Shown here: positions 2,796-34,343 of the stretch, piece by piece | How positions within the stretch are numbered: position 1 is the first letter of the stretch | Layout of the letters: each line of letters begins with the position of its first letter | NCBI GenBank assembly: GCA_025455885.1 | Contig: JALOLR010000017.1 | Location: forward strand, 1-64,000 | Direction of reading: 5' to 3' | Source: Acidimicrobiales bacterium | GTDB lineage: Bacteria; Actinomycetota; Acidimicrobiia; Acidimicrobiales; Acidimicrobilacustridaceae | DNA: 64,000 nucleotides | Notes under the pieces: model-generated | What the model was told of the DNA's origin: nothing | What the model saw: the letters and a program-made list of their open reading frames with translations, nothing else | Databases searched by the model: none | Position numbers and translations under genes: made by a program

Positions 2796-3890
2796 ATGAC
2801 CACCTGGCGCCGAGCTCTCGCCGTCACCACCCTGCTCGCCACCGTCGTGCTCGCTCCCGCGGCCCCCGGTCAGGCCCAGGAGCAACCCCCCCTGCCGGCG
2901 CCGCCGGCCCCCGAGGACCAGATCGTGCAGAGCTGGGCGCTGTTCCCCACCGGCTCCGACGACCCCGACCAGCCGAGCAACCGGCCCAACCTCTCCTACG
3001 AGGTCCCGGCCGGTGAGACCATCGAGGACTCCGTCACCGTCGCCAACTACGGCAGCGTGCCCCTGACGCTGCGTATCTACGCCTCCGACGCCTTCAACAA
3101 CCCCGAAGGCGGCTTCGACGTCCTCTCCGGTGACGAGGTCCCCACCGGCGCAGGCTCCTGGGTGAGCGTGCTCACCGAGTTCGTCACCGTCCCGGCCGGT
3201 ACGCAGTCCATCGTGCCGATCACGATCACCGTCCCGATCGACGCCTCGCCCGGCGACCACGTCGGCGCCGTGCTGGCCTCCCTGCGGGTCCCCGGCACCG
3301 CCCCCGACGGCAACACCGTCACCCTCGACCAGCGCACCGGCACCCGGCTCTACATGCGCGTGGACGGGCCGCTGAACCCCGAGCTGGCCGTCGAGAACCT
3401 CCAGACCGACTACAACCCCACCGCCAACCCGCTGTCGGGCAGCGCCGACGTGAGCTACCGGATCGTGAACCGGGGCAACGTGCGCCTCCAGGGCACCCAG
3501 CAGCTCAGCGTCGGCGGGCCCTTCGGCATCGGGCGCACCACCCTGCCCGCCGAGGACATCCCCGAGCTGCTCCCCGGCGAGGGCTACGACGTCACCGCCA
3601 CCGTCGAGGGCGTCCCCGCCACCGTCGCCGCGTTCACCGAGGTGACGCTCACCCCCGAGGCCCTCGGTCCGGACGTGGGCGAGCTCTCCGAGTCGAAGGG
3701 CACGTCGATCAGCCTGGCCCTCCCGGTCACCGTGCTGGCGATCCTCCTCGCCCTGGGCCTGGCCTGGTACGCCCGGCGGGCCTACCTCCGCCACCGCCGT
3801 GAGGGCACCCCGCCGTCCGGTCCGCCCCGCGGCGACACCCTGCCGCCCGCCCCCGCCCCGCCGCCCACCCCGGTGGGCCAGTCGTCGTGA
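2796..3890 (+). CDS. Membrane-anchored surface protein, DUF916 / WxL peptidoglycan-binding-like
   Basis: A 364-residue exported protein. Residues 1-27 form a signal peptide. The body reads as two beta-sandwich domains: an N-terminal one with SYEVPAGETIEDSVTVANYG and DASPGDHVGAVLASL, the pattern of DUF916-type domains found with WxL cell-surface proteins, and a second Ig-like one (about 190-290). One membrane helix (about 305-326) is followed by an Arg-rich stop-transfer stretch and a short Pro-rich cytoplasmic tail. That topology places the bulk outside the cell, anchored at its C-terminus. The gene overlaps the next by 4 bases (GTGA), so the two are probably translated together and may form a surface complex. 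The domain assignment is by pattern, not search. Confidence 0.7.
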   Translation: MTTWRRALAVTTLLATVVLAPAAPGQAQEQPPLPAPPAPEDQIVQSWALFPTGSDDPDQPSNRPNLSYEVPAGETIEDSVTVANYGSVPLTLRIYASDAFNNPEGGFDVLSGDEVPTGAGSWVSVLTEFVTVPAGTQSIVPITITVPIDASPGDHVGAVLASLRVPGTAPDGNTVTLDQRTGTRLYMRVDGPLNPELAVENLQTDYNPTANPLSGSADVSYRIVNRGNVRLQGTQQLSVGGPFGIGRTTLPAEDIPELLPGEGYDVTATVEGVPATVAAFTEVTLTPEALGPDVGELSESKGTSISLALPVTVLAILLALGLAWYARRAYLRHRREGTPPSGPPRGDTLPPAPAPPPTPVGQSS

Positions 3891-6476: not shown

Positions 6477-9149
6477 GTGACACCGCCCCCCCCGACCTCG
6501 GCCGGGACGACCCTGCCGCCGCTCGCCACTCCCGGTCCCACGGCCCCTTCCGGTCCGGGTGATCCCACCCCCGGGCGTCGGGTCGTCGGCTTCGCCGCCG
6601 GGTTGGCGGGCCACGGTGGGCGTCCCGCCTTCGTCGACCTCGACGGCCGGACGATCACCTACGCCGAGCTCGCCGGGCTCGTGGCCGCGGCCCGCGAGGC
6701 GCTCGGCCCGACCCGCCGCCTCGTGATGGTCGAGGGGGCCAGCACCGTCGACGCCGTCGTCGCCTACCTCGGGGCGCTGGCCGGCGGGCACCCCGTCCTC
6801 CTCGTCCCCCCGGGCGACGACCGGCCGTGGCGAGACGTCTACGCCCCCGACGTCGTGTCCGACGCGGGCGGCGGCTGGGCCTACGACGAGCTGCGCCCCG
6901 GCACGGCCCACGACCTGCACCCCGAGCTGGCGCTGCTGCTCACCACCTCCGGCAGCACCGGGTCGCCCAAGCTGGTCCGGCTCTCCCACACCAACCTCGA
7001 GTCCAACGCCGCGGCCATCGCCGAGTACCTGGGGCTGCACCCCGGCGACCGTGCGATCACCAGCCTCCCGCTGCACTACTGCTACGGCCTCTCCCAGCTC
7101 CACAGCCACCTCACCGTCGGCGCGACCGTCGTGCTCACCGACCTCTCGGTCACCGATCCGTGCTTCTGGACCCGGGTCCGCGACACCGGCGTCACCGGCC
7201 TCGCCGGGGTGCCCTACACCTTCGAGCTCCTCGACCGCGTCGGCTTCGCCGAGATGGACCTGCCCCACCTGCGCTACGTCACCCAGGCCGGCGGGCGCCT
7301 CCGCCCCGACCGGGTCCGCCGGTGGGCCGAGGTCGGCGCCCGTCACGGCTGGGACCTCTACGTCATGTACGGCCAGACCGAGGCCACGGCCCGCATGGCC
7401 TACCTGCCCCCCGACCAGGCCCTCGTCCGGCCCGGGTCCGTCGGCCGAGCCGTCCCCGGCGGCGAGCTGCGCGTCGACCGCGCCCCCGGCGCCGGCCCCC
7501 ACGATCCCGGCGAGGTCGTCTACCGCGGTCCCAACGTGATGCTCGGCTACGCCGAGCGCCCCGCTGACCTCGCCCTCGGCCGCACCGTCACCGAGCTGCG
7601 CACCGGCGACCTCGGCCGCCTCGACGACGACGGCCACCTCCACCTCGTCGGGCGGGCCCACCGCTTCGTGAAGCTGTTCGGGCTGCGCATCGACCTCGAC
7701 GCCGCCGAGGCCCTCCTCGCCGAGCACGGCACCGAGGCCGTGTGCACCGGCGACGACGAGGTCCTCGTCGTCGGCGTCGAACGCACCCCGGGTGCGCCCG
7801 CACCCGACCCCGACCGGATCCGGACCACCCTGGCCGGCGCCCTCGGCCTCCCCCGTGCCGCTGTGGCCGTGTGGGTGACCGACGAGCTCCCCCGCCTCCC
7901 CGGCGGCAAGCCCGACCTCCTCGCCCTGCGCAGGAGCGCCGTCCCCGAGCCGGCCCTGCACGTCCCCGCCCCCACGGGCTCGGCGCCCGGCTCCGTCGCC
8001 GCCGCCTTCGCCGAGGTGCTCGACCGGCCCCTCGCCGACGTCACCCCCGACGCCACCTTCGTCGCCCTCGGCGGCGACTCGCTCTCCTACGTCGAGGTGT
8101 CGCTGCTGCTCGACGGGCTCCTCACCCGGGTGCCCGACGCCTGGCACCTCACCCCCGTCGCCGACCTCCAGGCCCTCGCCGTCACCCCGTCGGACACCGC
8201 CGCCACCGGCGGGGTGCGCCACGTCCCCCGGACCATGGAGACCGGGGTGGTGCTGCGGGCGGTGGCCATCACCCTCGTCGTCGGCACCCACAGCGGCGCG
8301 TTCCTCCTGCAGGGCGGTGCTCACGTGCTGCTGGCGGTGGCCGGCTACAACTTCGCCCGGTTCCGCCTCTTCGCCACCTCCACCGCCGAGCACCTCCGCG
8401 CCGCCGGCGCCGCCGTCGCCCGCATCGCCGTGCCCACGGCGATCTGGCTGGCCGTGCAGTTCACCTACGCCGAGCCGTTCACCCTCTCCCGGGTGCTGTT
8501 CGCCAACAACTACCTGGGCACCGGCCTCTGGGAGTACTGGTACCTCGAGGCGCTGCTCCAGATCCTGGTGGTGTTCACCCTCGTCTTCGCCGTCCCGGCG
8601 GTGCGGGCCGTCGAACGGCGCCACCCCTTCGGCGTGGCGCTCGGGGTGCTGGTCGCGGCCACGCTGCTGCGCCACGACGCCCTCGGCATCGCCGACGCCA
8701 CCCACCCCATGTACATGCCCGACACGCTGGTGTGGTGCTTCGCCCTCGGGTGGGCCGCCCAGCGGGCCACCACCTGGCCGCGCCGGGCCGTGGTCAGCGC
8801 TGTCGGGCTGGTGGCCCTGCTCGACTTCTTCGACACCACCCCCCGGGGGGTCCTCGTCGGTGTCGGGCTGGCCGCCCTGGTGTGGCTGCCGCGGCTCCCC
8901 GTCCCGACCTTCCTGCGACCGGTCGTGGCGGGCCTCGCCGCCGCCTCGCTGTGGATCTACCTCACCCACTGGGCGGTGCTGTCCCCGTTGCGGGGCGTCC
9001 TCCCGCCCGTCGCCGTGGCGGCGGTGGCGCTCGGGGTCGGCGTGGTCGCCGCCCTGCTGGCCGCCCGGGTCGAGCGGGCCCTCGTCGGGTGGTGGCGGGC
9101 GCGATCGGCGTCGCCCTCCCGGCCGGCGGACGCCGTCGACGTCAGCTGA
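6477..9149 (+). CDS. Fused adenylation domain - peptidyl carrier domain - membrane acyltransferase
   Basis: An 890-residue three-part protein. Residues about 30-490 are an ANL-superfamily adenylation domain: LLTTSGSTGSPKL (P-loop, about 155-168), YGQTEATARM (about 298), LRTGDLG, GRAHRFVKLFG, and a C-terminal PGGKPD whose Lys (about 478) would be catalytic. Residues about 500-580 are a carrier domain with GGDSL, Ser535 being the phosphopantetheine site. From about 590 to the end lie roughly ten membrane helices with THS and YLTHW segments typical of acyltransferase-3 (OafA-like) proteins. By domain logic it activates an acyl or amino acid, loads it on its own carrier and passes it to an acceptor at the membrane, like DltA, DltC and DltB in one chain. 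The substrate is unknown. Control by iron is suggested by the palindrome over its -10. It overlaps the convergent exporter gene by 8 bases. Confidence 0.85.
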   Translation: MTPPPPTSAGTTLPPLATPGPTAPSGPGDPTPGRRVVGFAAGLAGHGGRPAFVDLDGRTITYAELAGLVAAAREALGPTRRLVMVEGASTVDAVVAYLGALAGGHPVLLVPPGDDRPWRDVYAPDVVSDAGGGWAYDELRPGTAHDLHPELALLLTTSGSTGSPKLVRLSHTNLESNAAAIAEYLGLHPGDRAITSLPLHYCYGLSQLHSHLTVGATVVLTDLSVTDPCFWTRVRDTGVTGLAGVPYTFELLDRVGFAEMDLPHLRYVTQAGGRLRPDRVRRWAEVGARHGWDLYVMYGQTEATARMAYLPPDQALVRPGSVGRAVPGGELRVDRAPGAGPHDPGEVVYRGPNVMLGYAERPADLALGRTVTELRTGDLGRLDDDGHLHLVGRAHRFVKLFGLRIDLDAAEALLAEHGTEAVCTGDDEVLVVGVERTPGAPAPDPDRIRTTLAGALGLPRAAVAVWVTDELPRLPGGKPDLLALRRSAVPEPALHVPAPTGSAPGSVAAAFAEVLDRPLADVTPDATFVALGGDSLSYVEVSLLLDGLLTRVPDAWHLTPVADLQALAVTPSDTAATGGVRHVPRTMETGVVLRAVAITLVVGTHSGAFLLQGGAHVLLAVAGYNFARFRLFATSTAEHLRAAGAAVARIAVPTAIWLAVQFTYAEPFTLSRVLFANNYLGTGLWEYWYLEALLQILVVFTLVFAVPAVRAVERRHPFGVALGVLVAATLLRHDALGIADATHPMYMPDTLVWCFALGWAAQRATTWPRRAVVSAVGLVALLDFFDTTPRGVLVGVGLAALVWLPRLPVPTFLRPVVAGLAAASLWIYLTHWAVLSPLRGVLPPVAVAAVALGVGVVAALLAARVERALVGWWRARSASPSRPADAVDVS

Positions 9150-31242: not shown

Positions 31243-31665
31243 TCAGCTGTTCACCCGCTCGTCGAGCTCCACGTAGCGCTTGGCGAGGTCGTGGAGGATG
31301 CGGTTGGCGAAGCCGGGGATCTCGTCGAGCAGGGCGGCGAACTCGCGCTGACCGATGACGAGGAGGGTGACCGGCCCCTTGGCGGTCACCGTGGCGGTGC
31401 GTTGCCCGCCGGTGAGGGGCGCGAGCTCGCCCACGACGTCGGCGGGGCCGATGGTGGCGACGACCTCGCCCTTGCGGGCCACGGTCGCCTCGCCCTCGAT
31501 CACGATGAAGCACTCGTGGCCGGGCTCGCCCTCACGCGCCAGGACGCGACCGTCGGGCGCCGAGACCTCCATCGTGGCCTGCGCCACCTGCTGGAGCTCC
31601 TTCTTGGAGCAGTGGGCGAACATCGGGACCTGCGCCAGATGGGTGAGCCATGCGTCTCGTGCCAT
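31243..31665 (-). CDS. Cyclic nucleotide-binding domain protein
   Basis: A 140-residue stand-alone cNMP-binding domain of the CAP fold. The opening LTHLAQVPMFAHCSKKELQQV, the REGEPGHECFIVIEGEATV beta-roll and the phosphate-binding loop region (VVGELAPLTGGQRTATVTA, with Glu and Arg in the usual places) are all present. No DNA-binding domain follows, so it would act by binding a partner, or be a sensor without output. It lies 74 bases upstream of the EtfD-like gene on the same strand and may be the first gene of that operon. Confidence 0.87.
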   Translation of the reverse strand: MARDAWLTHLAQVPMFAHCSKKELQQVAQATMEVSAPDGRVLAREGEPGHECFIVIEGEATVARKGEVVATIGPADVVGELAPLTGGQRTATVTAKGPVTLLVIGQREFAALLDEIPGFANRILHDLAKRYVELDERVNS

Positions 31666-31793
31666 CGGGCCAGCTTACGGAGCGCGGCTCCCGGGTGCGC
31701 TGCTCTTCGCGAGGGCCGGGACGAGGTCTGCCCAGGGGGGATGTGGCACCTGTCTCTTCACTTGCGGGAAATGTGCTCGAAACAGCGCCTTCG

Positions 31794-31799
31794 TACGGT
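31794..31799 (+). promoter_or_regulatory. -10 element of the winged-helix regulator gene (leaderless)
   Basis: TACGGT ends exactly 7 bases before the GTG at 31807; no ribosome site is visible. This spacing fixes the start of an otherwise open-ended frame. Confidence 0.45.
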
Positions 31800-31806
31800 C
31801 GGTCGG

Positions 31807-32349
31807 GTGGACGTCGTACTCCTGCGCTGGCCCCAGGAGCAGGAGCGTCGCGATGCCCTCGCCCGCCAGGAGCATCCCCGGCTCCTGCTCCTCGACCAGG
31901 ACACCCCTCCTCCCCCCCTCGCCGACTGCTTCGAGGACTGGGTGCGCCTGCCCGTCAGCAACGATGACCTCGAGGCCCGTTCGCTCGGCCTGCTCCAGAG
32001 GGTGCGCAGCCACCAGCCCGACCGACCGGTGCTCGACCCCGACGGCGTGCTGCGCCGGGGCGGGACGTGGGTCTCGCTCCCGCCCGTCGAGGCCCGCCTG
32101 ATGGGGGCGCTGCTCGAGCGCTTCGGGGCGGTGGTGAGCCGGGAGCACCTGGCCCGCGCCGGATGGCCCCAGGGCGCGCCGGGGCGCAACGCCCTCGACG
32201 TCCACATGCTCCGGGTCCGCCGTCGGATCGCCCCACTGGCCCTCGTCATCAAGACCGTGCGCTCGCGGGGCTACCTGCTCGAGCAGGTGCACGACGGAGC
32301 CGACGAGGAGTCCGGCGGCGATGTCCCCGAGCTCCGGGGGACGGCCTGA
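31807..32349 (+). CDS. Atypical GlnR-like winged-helix regulator
   Basis: A 180-residue protein with a C-terminal OmpR/PhoB-type winged helix (about 77-160): SLPPVEARLMGALLERFG, then SREHLARAGWP, then NALDVHMLRVRRRI as recognition helix and IKTVRSRGYLL as wing. The N-terminal 75 residues are far shorter than a receiver domain and lack its aspartate pocket, retaining only LLLLDQD. GlnR, the actinobacterial nitrogen regulator, also has a degenerate receiver plus this output domain. The gene lies directly upstream of amtB-glnK and of a run of GlnR-type half-sites, so a role in nitrogen control is inferred from context. It could instead be an unrelated orphan regulator. Confidence 0.7.
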   Translation: MDVVLLRWPQEQERRDALARQEHPRLLLLDQDTPPPPLADCFEDWVRLPVSNDDLEARSLGLLQRVRSHQPDRPVLDPDGVLRRGGTWVSLPPVEARLMGALLERFGAVVSREHLARAGWPQGAPGRNALDVHMLRVRRRIAPLALVIKTVRSRGYLLEQVHDGADEESGGDVPELRGTA

Positions 32350-32378
32350 CGCCCGGCGCGACCGCTCGTGTGACCGGC

Positions 32379-32438
32379 GAAACACGCCCGTCACACGAGG
32401 GACCACGAGCCGTAACGACCGAGAGACTCTCCGGAAAC
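32379..32438 (+). promoter_or_regulatory. Phased GlnR-type half-site array upstream of amtB
   Basis: Six pentamers start exactly 11 bases apart: GAAAC (32379), GTCAC (32390), GACCA (32401), GTAAC (32412), GAGAC (32423), GAAAC (32434). The published GlnR box is GTnAC-n6-GAAAC repeated, so four of six are perfect half-sites, one has a single mismatch and one is poor. The array ends 111 bases before amtB and just upstream of a TAAGGT -10 candidate (32449-32454), a position suited to activation. Confidence 0.65.
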
Positions 32439-32549
32439 CACCCTCTCCTAAGGTCAGGATCTGTTCAGACGGACGACCGCCGATGACGTTCCCCGGAGCG
32501 CCCCGGACGTCTCGTCCGACCCGATGAACCACACCGAAAGGATCGAAGT

Positions 32550-33992
32550 ATGCGTTTGAAGATGCTCCTGGGAGGGGGTCTCGTGGCAGCGGTGCTGCTG
32601 CTCGGTGCCCTCCCCGCCCTTGCCCAGGACGGAGGTGCCGACGTCGACGTCACCGTCGTGGAGGTCGAGCTCACCGACCGGTTCACCGGGACGGCCGCCG
32701 ACATCGCGCAGACCGTCATCATCGACAACATCTTCATCTTCATCGCCGGCGTGCTGGTCTTCTTCATGCAGGCCGGCTTCGCGCTCCTCGCCGCAGGTCT
32801 CACCCGGGCGAAGAACTCGTCGAACATGATGATGAAGAGCCTCATGGACGCCGCGCTCGGTGTGCTGGTCTTCGGCCTCGTCGGCTGGGGCCTCGCCTAC
32901 CCGGGCGGCGACGGCGGTGGCTTCCTCGGCTTCGCCGGCTGGGGCGTGCCGGGTCTGATGGACCCCCTGCCGGACCTCAGCGCCCTCGGGCCGGACTTCT
33001 ACCCGCTCAGCGTGTCCACCGACTTCTTCTTCCAGGCCGCGTTCGCCGCCACCGCCGCCACGATCGTGGCCGGGGCCGTCGCCGAGCGGACGAAGTTCAT
33101 CGCCTACCTGATCTACACGGTCCTCATCACCGGCCTCATCTACCCGGTCGTGGTGAGCTGGCAGTGGGGCGGCGGTTGGCTCGCCGAGCGGGGGTTCGTC
33201 GACTTCGCCGGCTCCGGGCTGGTGCACCTCACCGGTGGGATCGCGGCGCTCATGGGCGCCATCATCCTCGGCCCCCGGCTCGGCAAGTTCGGCCCGGACG
33301 GCAAGCCCCGGGCCATCCCCGCCCACTCGATCCCGCTGGCCCTCACCGGCGTGATGATCCTGTTCATCGGCTTCTTCGGGTTCAACCCGGGCTCCGCCCT
33401 CCAGGCCGACATGAGCGTCCCGATCATCGCCGTGCTCACGCTGTTCGCAGCCTGTGCCGGCGCCGTCGGCGCCCTCATCAGCGGCTGGGCGCTGCTCAAG
33501 AAGCCGGACACCTCGATGGCCGGCAACGGCCTCCTGGCCGGTCTCGTCGCCATCTGCGCCGGTGTGGGCAGCATGGACGTGGTCCCGGCCCTCGTCACCG
33601 GCTTCATCGCCGGCATCATCGTGGTCCCCGCCGTGCTCGTCATCGAGCGGGTCTTCAAGGTGGACGACCCGGTCGGTGCCGTGTCGGTGCACGCCGTCTC
33701 CGGCTTCTGGGGCCTCATCGCCACCGGCCTGTTCGCCATCGACGACGGTCTCTTCGACGGTGGCGGCGCAGGCCTCCTCGGCGATCAGGCCCTCGGGGCG
33801 CTCGCCATCATCGTGTGGGTGGCCGTGACCAGCGGCATCCTGTTCGGGGTCCTCAGGGCCGTCGGCATCCTCCGGGTCAGCCCCGCCGAGGAGCTCGAGG
33901 GGCTCGACATCACCGAGCACGGTGCCCCGGGCTACTCCGACGACGTCCTGGCCGGCATGGGCGAGGAACTCCTCGCCTCCACGAAGGGTTAG
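32550..33992 (+). CDS. amtB: Ammonium transporter AmtB
   Basis: A 480-residue Amt/Rh family ammonium channel. Residues 1-25 are a cleavable signal peptide (ending PALAQ), followed by eleven membrane helices. The twin pore histidines are present (GLVHLTGG and SVHAVSGFWG), as are the FFMQAGFALL helix and the GADxxx-type region variants of the family. The C-terminal tail (about 440-480) is the part that meets the PII protein. AAAGGA lies 7 bases before the ATG. glnK follows after 9 bases, the standard amtB-glnK pairing in which PII plugs the channel when nitrogen is ample. GlnR-type sites upstream suggest induction under nitrogen limitation. Confidence 0.96.
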   Translation: MRLKMLLGGGLVAAVLLLGALPALAQDGGADVDVTVVEVELTDRFTGTAADIAQTVIIDNIFIFIAGVLVFFMQAGFALLAAGLTRAKNSSNMMMKSLMDAALGVLVFGLVGWGLAYPGGDGGGFLGFAGWGVPGLMDPLPDLSALGPDFYPLSVSTDFFFQAAFAATAATIVAGAVAERTKFIAYLIYTVLITGLIYPVVVSWQWGGGWLAERGFVDFAGSGLVHLTGGIAALMGAIILGPRLGKFGPDGKPRAIPAHSIPLALTGVMILFIGFFGFNPGSALQADMSVPIIAVLTLFAACAGAVGALISGWALLKKPDTSMAGNGLLAGLVAICAGVGSMDVVPALVTGFIAGIIVVPAVLVIERVFKVDDPVGAVSVHAVSGFWGLIATGLFAIDDGLFDGGGAGLLGDQALGALAIIVWVAVTSGILFGVLRAVGILRVSPAEELEGLDITEHGAPGYSDDVLAGMGEELLASTKG

Positions 33993-34001
33993 GAGATCCT
34001 C

Positions 34002-34343
34002 ATGGCCACCATCATCACCGCAGTCATCCGACCCCATTCCCTCGATTCCGTGAAGGACGCCCTCAAGGCGGCCGGCGTGACGGGGATGACCATCACCGAG
34101 GTGAAGGGTTTCGGCCGCCAGGGCGGACACACCGAGACCTACCGCGGTGCGGAGTACACCGTCGACTTCCTGCCGAAGATCAAGCTCGAGGCCATCGTCG
34201 CCGACGGCGACGTCGCCTCGACGGTCGAGGCGATCACCGGTGCCGCCAACACGGGCAACATCGGCGACGGGAAGATCTGGACCCTGCCGGTCGGGACGCT
34301 CACGCGGATCCGCACCGGCGAGCTCGGGGACGACGCCGTGTGA
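34002..34343 (+). CDS. glnK: PII nitrogen regulatory protein
   Basis: A 113-residue PII signalling protein. The T-loop GFGRQGGHTETYRGAEY carries the modifiable Tyr (Tyr52 here, the Tyr51 equivalent), and the B-loop TGNIGDGKIW and C-terminal RIRTGE are intact, so binding of ATP/ADP and 2-oxoglutarate is expected. AGGAG lies 6 bases before the ATG. Adjacent to amtB, it most likely gates that channel. Actinobacterial PII is adenylylated rather than uridylylated in studied species; the modifying enzyme GlnD is not in this window. A strong hairpin ends the operon. Confidence 0.96.
   Translation: MATIITAVIRPHSLDSVKDALKAAGVTGMTITEVKGFGRQGGHTETYRGAEYTVDFLPKIKLEAIVADGDVASTVEAITGAANTGNIGDGKIWTLPVGTLTRIRTGELGDDAV

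Follow-up and report, generated by a model that had tools for sequence, protein, structure and literature searches.

Excerpts of the literature on Streptomyces, Amycolatopsis and Mycobacterium describe GlnR boxes at amtB as a- and b-sites, pentamers separated by 6-bp spacers in 11-bp phase, with GAAAC as the b-site. In a review, again in excerpt, four GlnR DNA-binding domains sit head-to-tail beside RNA polymerase, and unknown signals and unknown kinases are mentioned for GlnR-dependent control beyond GlnR. In Streptomyces and Mycobacterium, GlnR also has a DNA-binding partner, NnaR, whose gene it activates and which cooperates with it. The distance from the NnaR motif to the nearby GlnR box varies little, the motif being the upstream one of the two at trHbN, and leaderless features are described (review, excerpt; PMC6277429). 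NnaR carries a HemD-like domain, recognizes a palindromic motif with a 16-bp gap and acts on nitrate/nitrite genes. Among OmpR/PhoB regulators, atypical members such as 2HQR, which we take to be HP1043, and RitR do not need phosphorylation; they combine an OmpR-type winged helix (wHTH) with a full-size receiver and have no working phospho-acceptor.

The locus analyzed here lies in a window of 64,000 nucleotides from a genome of the Acidimicrobiales, an order that is common in water and has few cultured species (PMC5962788, excerpt). Between a cyclic-nucleotide-binding gene and amtB, the window encodes a short OmpR-type winged-helix regulator, here called SR. Like 2HQR and RitR, SR has an OmpR-type wHTH and presumably no working phospho-acceptor, but it keeps only about the second half of the receiver. 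It differs from NnaR in this half receiver, in the in-phase direct repeats that are its proposed sites and in its association with amtB and glnK. The DNA differs from the known a/b boxes as well: its upstream half is mostly of a GTCAG type and tracks a second protein, SR, which stands outside the GlnR clade. By analogy, the nearest known logic would be that of NnaR. The half-receiver family, whose proposed logic resembles NnaR-GlnR, was not found among the literature matches listed, nor was any GlnR or SR-like regulator of the Acidimicrobiia, most subscription journals being outside their coverage. We propose, with a probability of roughly 0.6, that SR acts independently of phosphorylation as a co-regulator in the nitrogen response of GlnR and forms a coherent feed-forward loop at amtB.

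SR and the GlnR of the same genome

Two divergent genes open the locus:
31243-31665, minus strand: protein consisting of a stand-alone cyclic-nucleotide-binding domain, transcribed away from SR and conserved as its neighbor in many relatives
31807-32349, plus strand: SR, short OmpR-type winged-helix regulator, GTG start, 180 aa (from the open reading frame, Pfam, family, AlphaFold and fold comparison)

SR is an OmpR/PhoB winged-helix protein, as judged from its Trans_reg_C domain and from fold comparison (Z 11-13 over residues 71-162). Trans_reg_C is the only Pfam domain found (PF00486, residues 89-158, 49.9 bits against a cut-off of 26.2), in keeping with the first-pass annotation, which had placed a short winged-helix regulator beside the array described below. 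An N-terminal half receiver occupies about residues 1-70 and the wHTH about residues 71-162. No full receiver precedes the wHTH; about 70 residues stand in its place. The AlphaFold model (mean pLDDT 91.8) runs strand-helix-strand-strand-helix and then into the wHTH. From residue 1 onward it aligns, at large rmsd, with receiver residues 43-45 onward of VanR (7LZA) and GlnR (8HIH). The two domains are placed differently, so that whole-protein alignments have rmsd values between 7.6 and about 12, and the loss of the first receiver half is read from residue ranges and sequence rather than from a tight superposition. According to the model, SR retains approximately the second half of a receiver. 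W8, P9, P36, D44, W45, R47 and R58 are invariant in an alignment of 42 rows. R7-W8-P9 falls at the place of the end of receiver strand β3 (R in 35 of the 42 rows, W and P in all 42), and R-W-P would therefore occupy the position of the phospho-acceptor Asp if this mapping is right.

SR belongs to neither the GlnR nor the NnaR family. Its best PDB sequence matches are the PhoB-family regulator 5DCL/5DCM (titled NsrR) and BasR/PmrA, and GlnR is not its closest relative, with no GlnR chain among the PDB matches at E<=0.01. A tree built from 34 wHTH domains, with several long branches, groups SR as one clade (support 100/99), separate from GlnR and the remaining OmpR-type proteins of its own genome. 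The presumed recognition helix, mapped by eye, has different residues in SR and in GlnR at two places (N for R, L for R). That SR is a truncated or decaying GlnR was considered and rejected, given an N-terminal part conserved over the 42 aligned rows and a clade of its own. The HemD-like N-terminal domain of NnaR was not found in SR, for which Pfam gives Trans_reg_C alone. The model NF005568 (uroporphyrinogen-III synthase), presumably the NnaR family, meets SR in the wHTH alone, at residues 85-161, with 33.8 bits against 273. SR is nevertheless proposed to act like a GlnR co-regulator.

The first-pass annotation had suggested that SR might be the unusual GlnR of this organism. A search of the genome speaks against this, since a full-length GlnR ortholog is encoded directly behind glnA (L077:6872-7552, minus strand) and SR keeps to its separate clade. 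The gap between glnA (7556-8956, minus strand) and glnR is three bases, and the two apparently form one operon; a second glnA diverges from the first. The best PDB matches of the GlnR ortholog are 8HIH, 8HIG and 8HML, all titled GlnR. The M. tuberculosis GlnR chain 8HIH leads with E 4.6e-41 over residues 6-219, the best non-GlnR chain reaching E 7.3e-23, so that this protein is closest to GlnR over both receiver and wHTH. The Pfam receiver domain was not found in it at E<=0.001. Trans_reg_C matches 13 places in the genome, that is, 11 besides SR and GlnR. Searched with SR, the genome yields seven places at E<=1, and GlnR is not one of them. Across the order, 70 of 80 genomes carry a GlnR ortholog at E<1e-60; at E<1e-25 the search gives 76, admitting other OmpR-type proteins too. 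G009 has SR, and no GlnR ortholog was found in its assembly at E<1e-60. Incomplete assemblies may hide SR (G002, G014) or GlnR (G003, G009, G014).

SR is widespread in the order. At E<=1e-8 it was matched in 55 of the 80 genomes, its own included, some matches covering the wHTH alone; at E<1e-25 the number is 47. A draw of 396 genomes from the phylum held SR in 11, seven inside the order and four outside. The records of 27 SR contig loci are labelled Acidimicrobiales, Acidimicrobiia, Microthrix-type or unplaced Actinomycetota, and two are labelled Bifidobacterium breve. amtB or glnK lies within 1.5 kb of SR in 21 of 39 loci and neither is nearby in 18, figures that are not a rate because the loci were partly chosen for this linkage: at least seven (L142, L143, L145-L147, L149 and L150) were picked as divergent SR-like matches, mostly near amtB. 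A frequent order without amtB is hdr-like gene, cNMP-binding gene, SR, gpmA and dnaK. SR is the fixed part of the locus and amtB-glnK the optional part. Divergent SR paralogs adjoin further copies of amtB, mostly also of glnK, at L142, L143, L146, L147, L149 and L150. At L063, L064, L067 and L073, SR is directly followed by an antiporter of the type with an ACT domain.

The promoter of SR

The first-pass annotation overlooked the promoter of SR, which spans 31757-31800:
31757-31783, plus strand: three-site GlnR-type box, TTCAC-n6-GAAAT-n6-GAAAC at 31757, 31768 and 31779, 19 of 20 points
31794-31799, plus strand: -10 element TACGGT, with the SR start codon 7 nt later

Upstream sequence was examined for 47 SR genes, 41 of them counted as orthologs at more than 45% identity. 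The general form is TTCAC-n6-GAAAC-n6-GAAAC, with TAnnnT 15 bases after the start of the last site. Every ortholog scores at least 15 of 20 and 37 of the 41 at least 18, a level of 15 or more being reached by 1 of 1025 shuffled upstream regions. The weakest box, at L065, scores 15 and is without TTCAC. The six excluded divergent paralogs have best scores of 10-16, and no GlnR box was found at L142 and L143, the SR paralogs with scored upstream sequence noted above beside amtB. The -10 element is equally constant, with the first T in 41 of the 41 promoters, A in 40 and the final T in 41. The position of SR residue 1 lies 27-30 nt after the start of the last site in 32 of 41 cases (38-138 nt in the other nine), a distance from which the SR transcript is predicted to be probably leaderless.

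A model of the box, R1, was trained on 29 of the 41 boxes (alignment A1; 12 close or weak ones were omitted). It finds the SR box of its own genome, one of the training rows, at E 7.9e-7. Beyond SR, it matches amtB promoters in two genomes without SR (G053, E 1.8e-5; G070, E 0.007) and, in the SR-less G057, an NCS1-type permease gene named by reading the translation (E 2.7e-5). In the genome of the window its match, at E 1.1e-5, is to a creatininase gene with a glutamine synthetase-like gene behind it. The SR box has the form of a GlnR box, with half-sites, 6-bp spacers and an a-site followed by GAAAC, and it agrees with the consensus forms that a review gives, in excerpt, for GlnR in M. smegmatis and S. 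erythraea. From this agreement, the amtB and permease matches in SR-less genomes and the creatininase match in its own genome, the SR promoter box is read as a predicted GlnR box. Since the box also stands at amtB in genomes without SR, SR is not needed to read it.

At the creatininase gene (L078:3774-3837), TTCAC at 3774 and GAAAC at 3796 and 3807 follow each other in multiples of 11 bp and lead into TCCGTACGGT. This GlnR-type box precedes the probably leaderless creatininase gene and the glutamine synthetase-like gene, an operon that is likely to serve nitrogen scavenging. In two genomes (L217, L218), a GlnR-type box with its -10 element precedes a long gene that, by eye, resembles type III glutamine synthetase.

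Two modules of the amtB array

The region between SR and glnK contains the following:
32379-32438, plus strand: amtB-upstream array of six pentamers, 32379 GAAAC, 32390 GTCAC, 32401 GACCA, 32412 GTAAC, 32423 GAGAC and 32434 GAAAC
32379-32411, plus strand: 5' module, sites 1-3 (GAAAC-GTCAC-GACCA), candidate SR sites, nearly confined to SR-bearing genomes
32412-32438, plus strand: 3' module, sites 4-6 (GTAAC-GAGAC-GAAAC), candidate GlnR sites, found without SR too
32449-32454, plus strand: amtB -10 element TAAGGT, at a fixed place ten bases past the end of site 6
32550-33992, plus strand: amtB, ammonium transporter, 480 aa (Pfam PF00909, E 1.8e-113; TIGR00836 above cut-off)
34002-34343, plus strand: glnK, PII signal protein, 113 aa (Pfam PF00543, E 2e-28)

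The six pentamers stand before amtB in exact 11-bp steps, as the first-pass annotation had reported. It had also counted four perfect half-sites; the array is real, and by our count five of the six pentamers fit G[AT]NAC. An array with five of six fitting sites occurs at a single place on both strands of the 64 kb and at none in 100 dinucleotide shuffles (maximum 0), in which arrays with four of six have a mean of 0.01 and a maximum of 1. A chance pattern, also considered, was thus rejected, as the shuffles yield no array with five fitting sites. The phased GlnR-type array is conserved in relatives, among them the congener G001. A scan for arrays before glnA, a check that the annotation had suggested, found none at the two divergent glnA genes; it required three sites scoring no less than 11 of 12 points, or four scoring no less than 14 of 16. 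A plasmid search with the region gave no match.

Eleven arrays align without gaps, with the majority sequence GTCAG-GTCAG-GTnCG-GTAAC-CAAAC-GAAAC-n6-TCCCTACCGTC. The T, A and T of the -10 element stand at their fixed place in 11 of 11 rows, site 5 is weakly conserved, and site 1 is GAAAC in four of the 11. In the genus of the window and in genus g11, sites 1-2 are GAAAC-GTCAC or GAAAC-GACAC, nearer to GlnR sites than GTCAG; in the other families they are mostly GTCAG-GTCAG. Sites 4-6 have the form of a GlnR box, that is, pentamer half-sites, 6-bp spacers and an a-site followed by GAAAC.

The alignment (A2) holds 11 of 12 arrays, the variant L106 being omitted, and a model trained on it, R2, was searched against the 80 genomes. 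The strongest matches are SR-linked amtB promoters in the 11 training genomes, which match by construction, and in G054, of a family outside the training set, where the array lies between SR and amtB (E 1.2e-15). Next come many unlinked amtB or glnK copies in SR genomes, with an in-phase GTCAG pair in G004, G006, G019, G020 and G034. The genome of the window itself (G000) has GTCAG-TTCAG-GACCA-GTAAC-CACAC-GAAAC at a second glnK-amtB operon, a weak match (E 0.005), and G450, of another genus in family f3 of the order, has GTCAG-GTCAG-TTCTC-GCAAC-CACAC-GTAAC before an amtB (E 0.008). With SR called at E<1e-25 and the array at E<1e-4, 32 genomes have both, 15 SR alone, one the array alone and 32 neither, counts that are not independent, since SR as well as the array is passed down the tree. 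By family, the array is present in nine of 17 with SR and none of 27 without (p 3e-5); when families holding training genomes are omitted, the figures are three of 11 and none of 27 (p 0.02). In the 15 SR genomes without a strong array, and in G169, G194, G246 and G263, which have SR, stand outside the order and gave no array at E<=0.02, SR must have other or diverged sites.

The two halves were also scored separately. Of 14 promoters in the SR-bearing group that do not adjoin an SR ortholog, 10 have a 5' module score above 3, which is not a rate because ten of the 14 stretches were fetched as R2 matches; the promoters without it are in G039, G043, G045 and G077. G014 was placed in the SR group here, its genus-mate G004 having SR, and without SR in the genome counts, where its own match is a cut paralog. 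In 35 SR-less stretches, not all proven amtB promoters (L195 is a weak model match), the 5' module never exceeds 0.4, a scale on which 99% of random places lie below -3.4. The 3' module exceeds 15 in nine of the 35 (shuffled maximum 10.9). GTCAG-like remnants persist in G002 (72% complete) and G003 (95%), relatives from the same family that have no SR. At the 41 SR promoters the 5' module is absent throughout, the best score being -3.9. Among 296 genomes of the phylum, R2 gives four full-model matches, all in SR genomes and all in training, and seven further genomes, none on the SR list of the 396-genome draw, match solely from model position 10-32 onward. Sites 4-6 with the -10 element are thus seen without SR, even outside the order, whereas sites 1-3 occur in phase almost only with SR.

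One regulator for all six sites, as the first-pass annotation implied, is unlikely because sites 1-3 and 4-6 are distributed differently. In one form of this idea, all six are GlnR sites, three ordinary boxes, and SR is merely a neighbor. In S. coelicolor, according to a review excerpt, amtB has three GlnR boxes that are all required for regulation, and because sites 1 and 2 of the window array (GAAAC, GTCAC) resemble GlnR sites we give this reading perhaps one chance in four. The GTCAG-GTCAG pair of other families, the absence of sites 1-2 from the SR-less stretches (remnants in two relatives aside) and from the SR promoter, and the seven phylum genomes that match the downstream model part alone all argue against it. 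In the other form, SR alone would bind the whole array and its own promoter, the autoregulation that a receiver-less GlnR would imply. OmpR-type proteins often autoregulate, and both promoters share GAAAC sites and the -10 spacing, but the 3' module and an R1-type box at amtB are kept in genomes without SR, the genome has a full-length GlnR, and the two proteins differ at the two presumed recognition-helix positions; we regard this as improbable. Least probable is a reading in which some other OmpR-type protein, such as a PhoP or MtrA relative, recognizes the 5' module and ties amtB to a second signal, the coincidence of the module with SR being phylogenetic. PhoP competes with GlnR at Streptomyces amtB in a review excerpt, and the 11 further Trans_reg_C places offer candidates, but the 5' module tracks SR across families and lies mostly at amtB/glnK, frequent neighbors of SR.

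R2 also matches outside amtB and glnK. In G045, an array of the SR type precedes a cation/proton antiporter gene (L206:904-3702) of the Na/H-exchanger type, whose product has a C-terminal region with an ACT domain, GlnD-like by eye. Other matches, read from translations, are a GntR-ABC transporter pair (G065, E 1.4e-5; G001, E 5.6e-4) and an adenosine deaminase gene in G014 (E 8.9e-8), both plausible nitrogen-scavenging genes. The array before the latter (L211, G014:C74) has GTCAG three times, and its two modules lie about 12 bases further apart than usual.

A proposed circuit for ammonium uptake

In the co-regulator reading that we prefer, nitrogen limitation would lead full-length GlnR, encoded behind glnA, to bind the three-site box TTCAC-GAAAC-GAAAC of SR. 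From this position just 5' of the -10 element, GlnR would switch SR on. SR would then bind sites 1-3, the upstream half of the composite array, at amtB-glnK and at the second glnK-amtB operon, and GlnR would bind sites 4-6, the downstream half, which stops ten bases short of the -10 element. The two proteins would be aligned head-to-tail on one DNA face, adjoining RNA polymerase. Ammonium uptake would therefore require GlnR twice, directly and via SR, in a coherent feed-forward loop. The input would be the level of SR, not its phosphorylation. The assignment of sites to proteins, the contact between SR and GlnR, and activation rather than repression are what we infer from the DNA and protein sequences.

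A bolder version is tentative and, in our view, has the odds somewhat against it. Here the half-receiver family and GlnR would form a heterotypic head-to-tail filament in one uninterrupted 11-bp register, with the SR half as an obligate upstream extension that is turned on by GlnR. In the half receiver, the invariant W-P and D-W-x-R residues would form the contact surface and touch the receivers of GlnR or the PII protein of the neighboring gene.

The in-phase composite array raises a testable structural question, whether two different OmpR-type proteins can join in one head-to-tail assembly. If true, a partner switched on by GlnR that marks a class of amtB/glnK promoters would give the Acidimicrobiales a defined nitrogen circuit.
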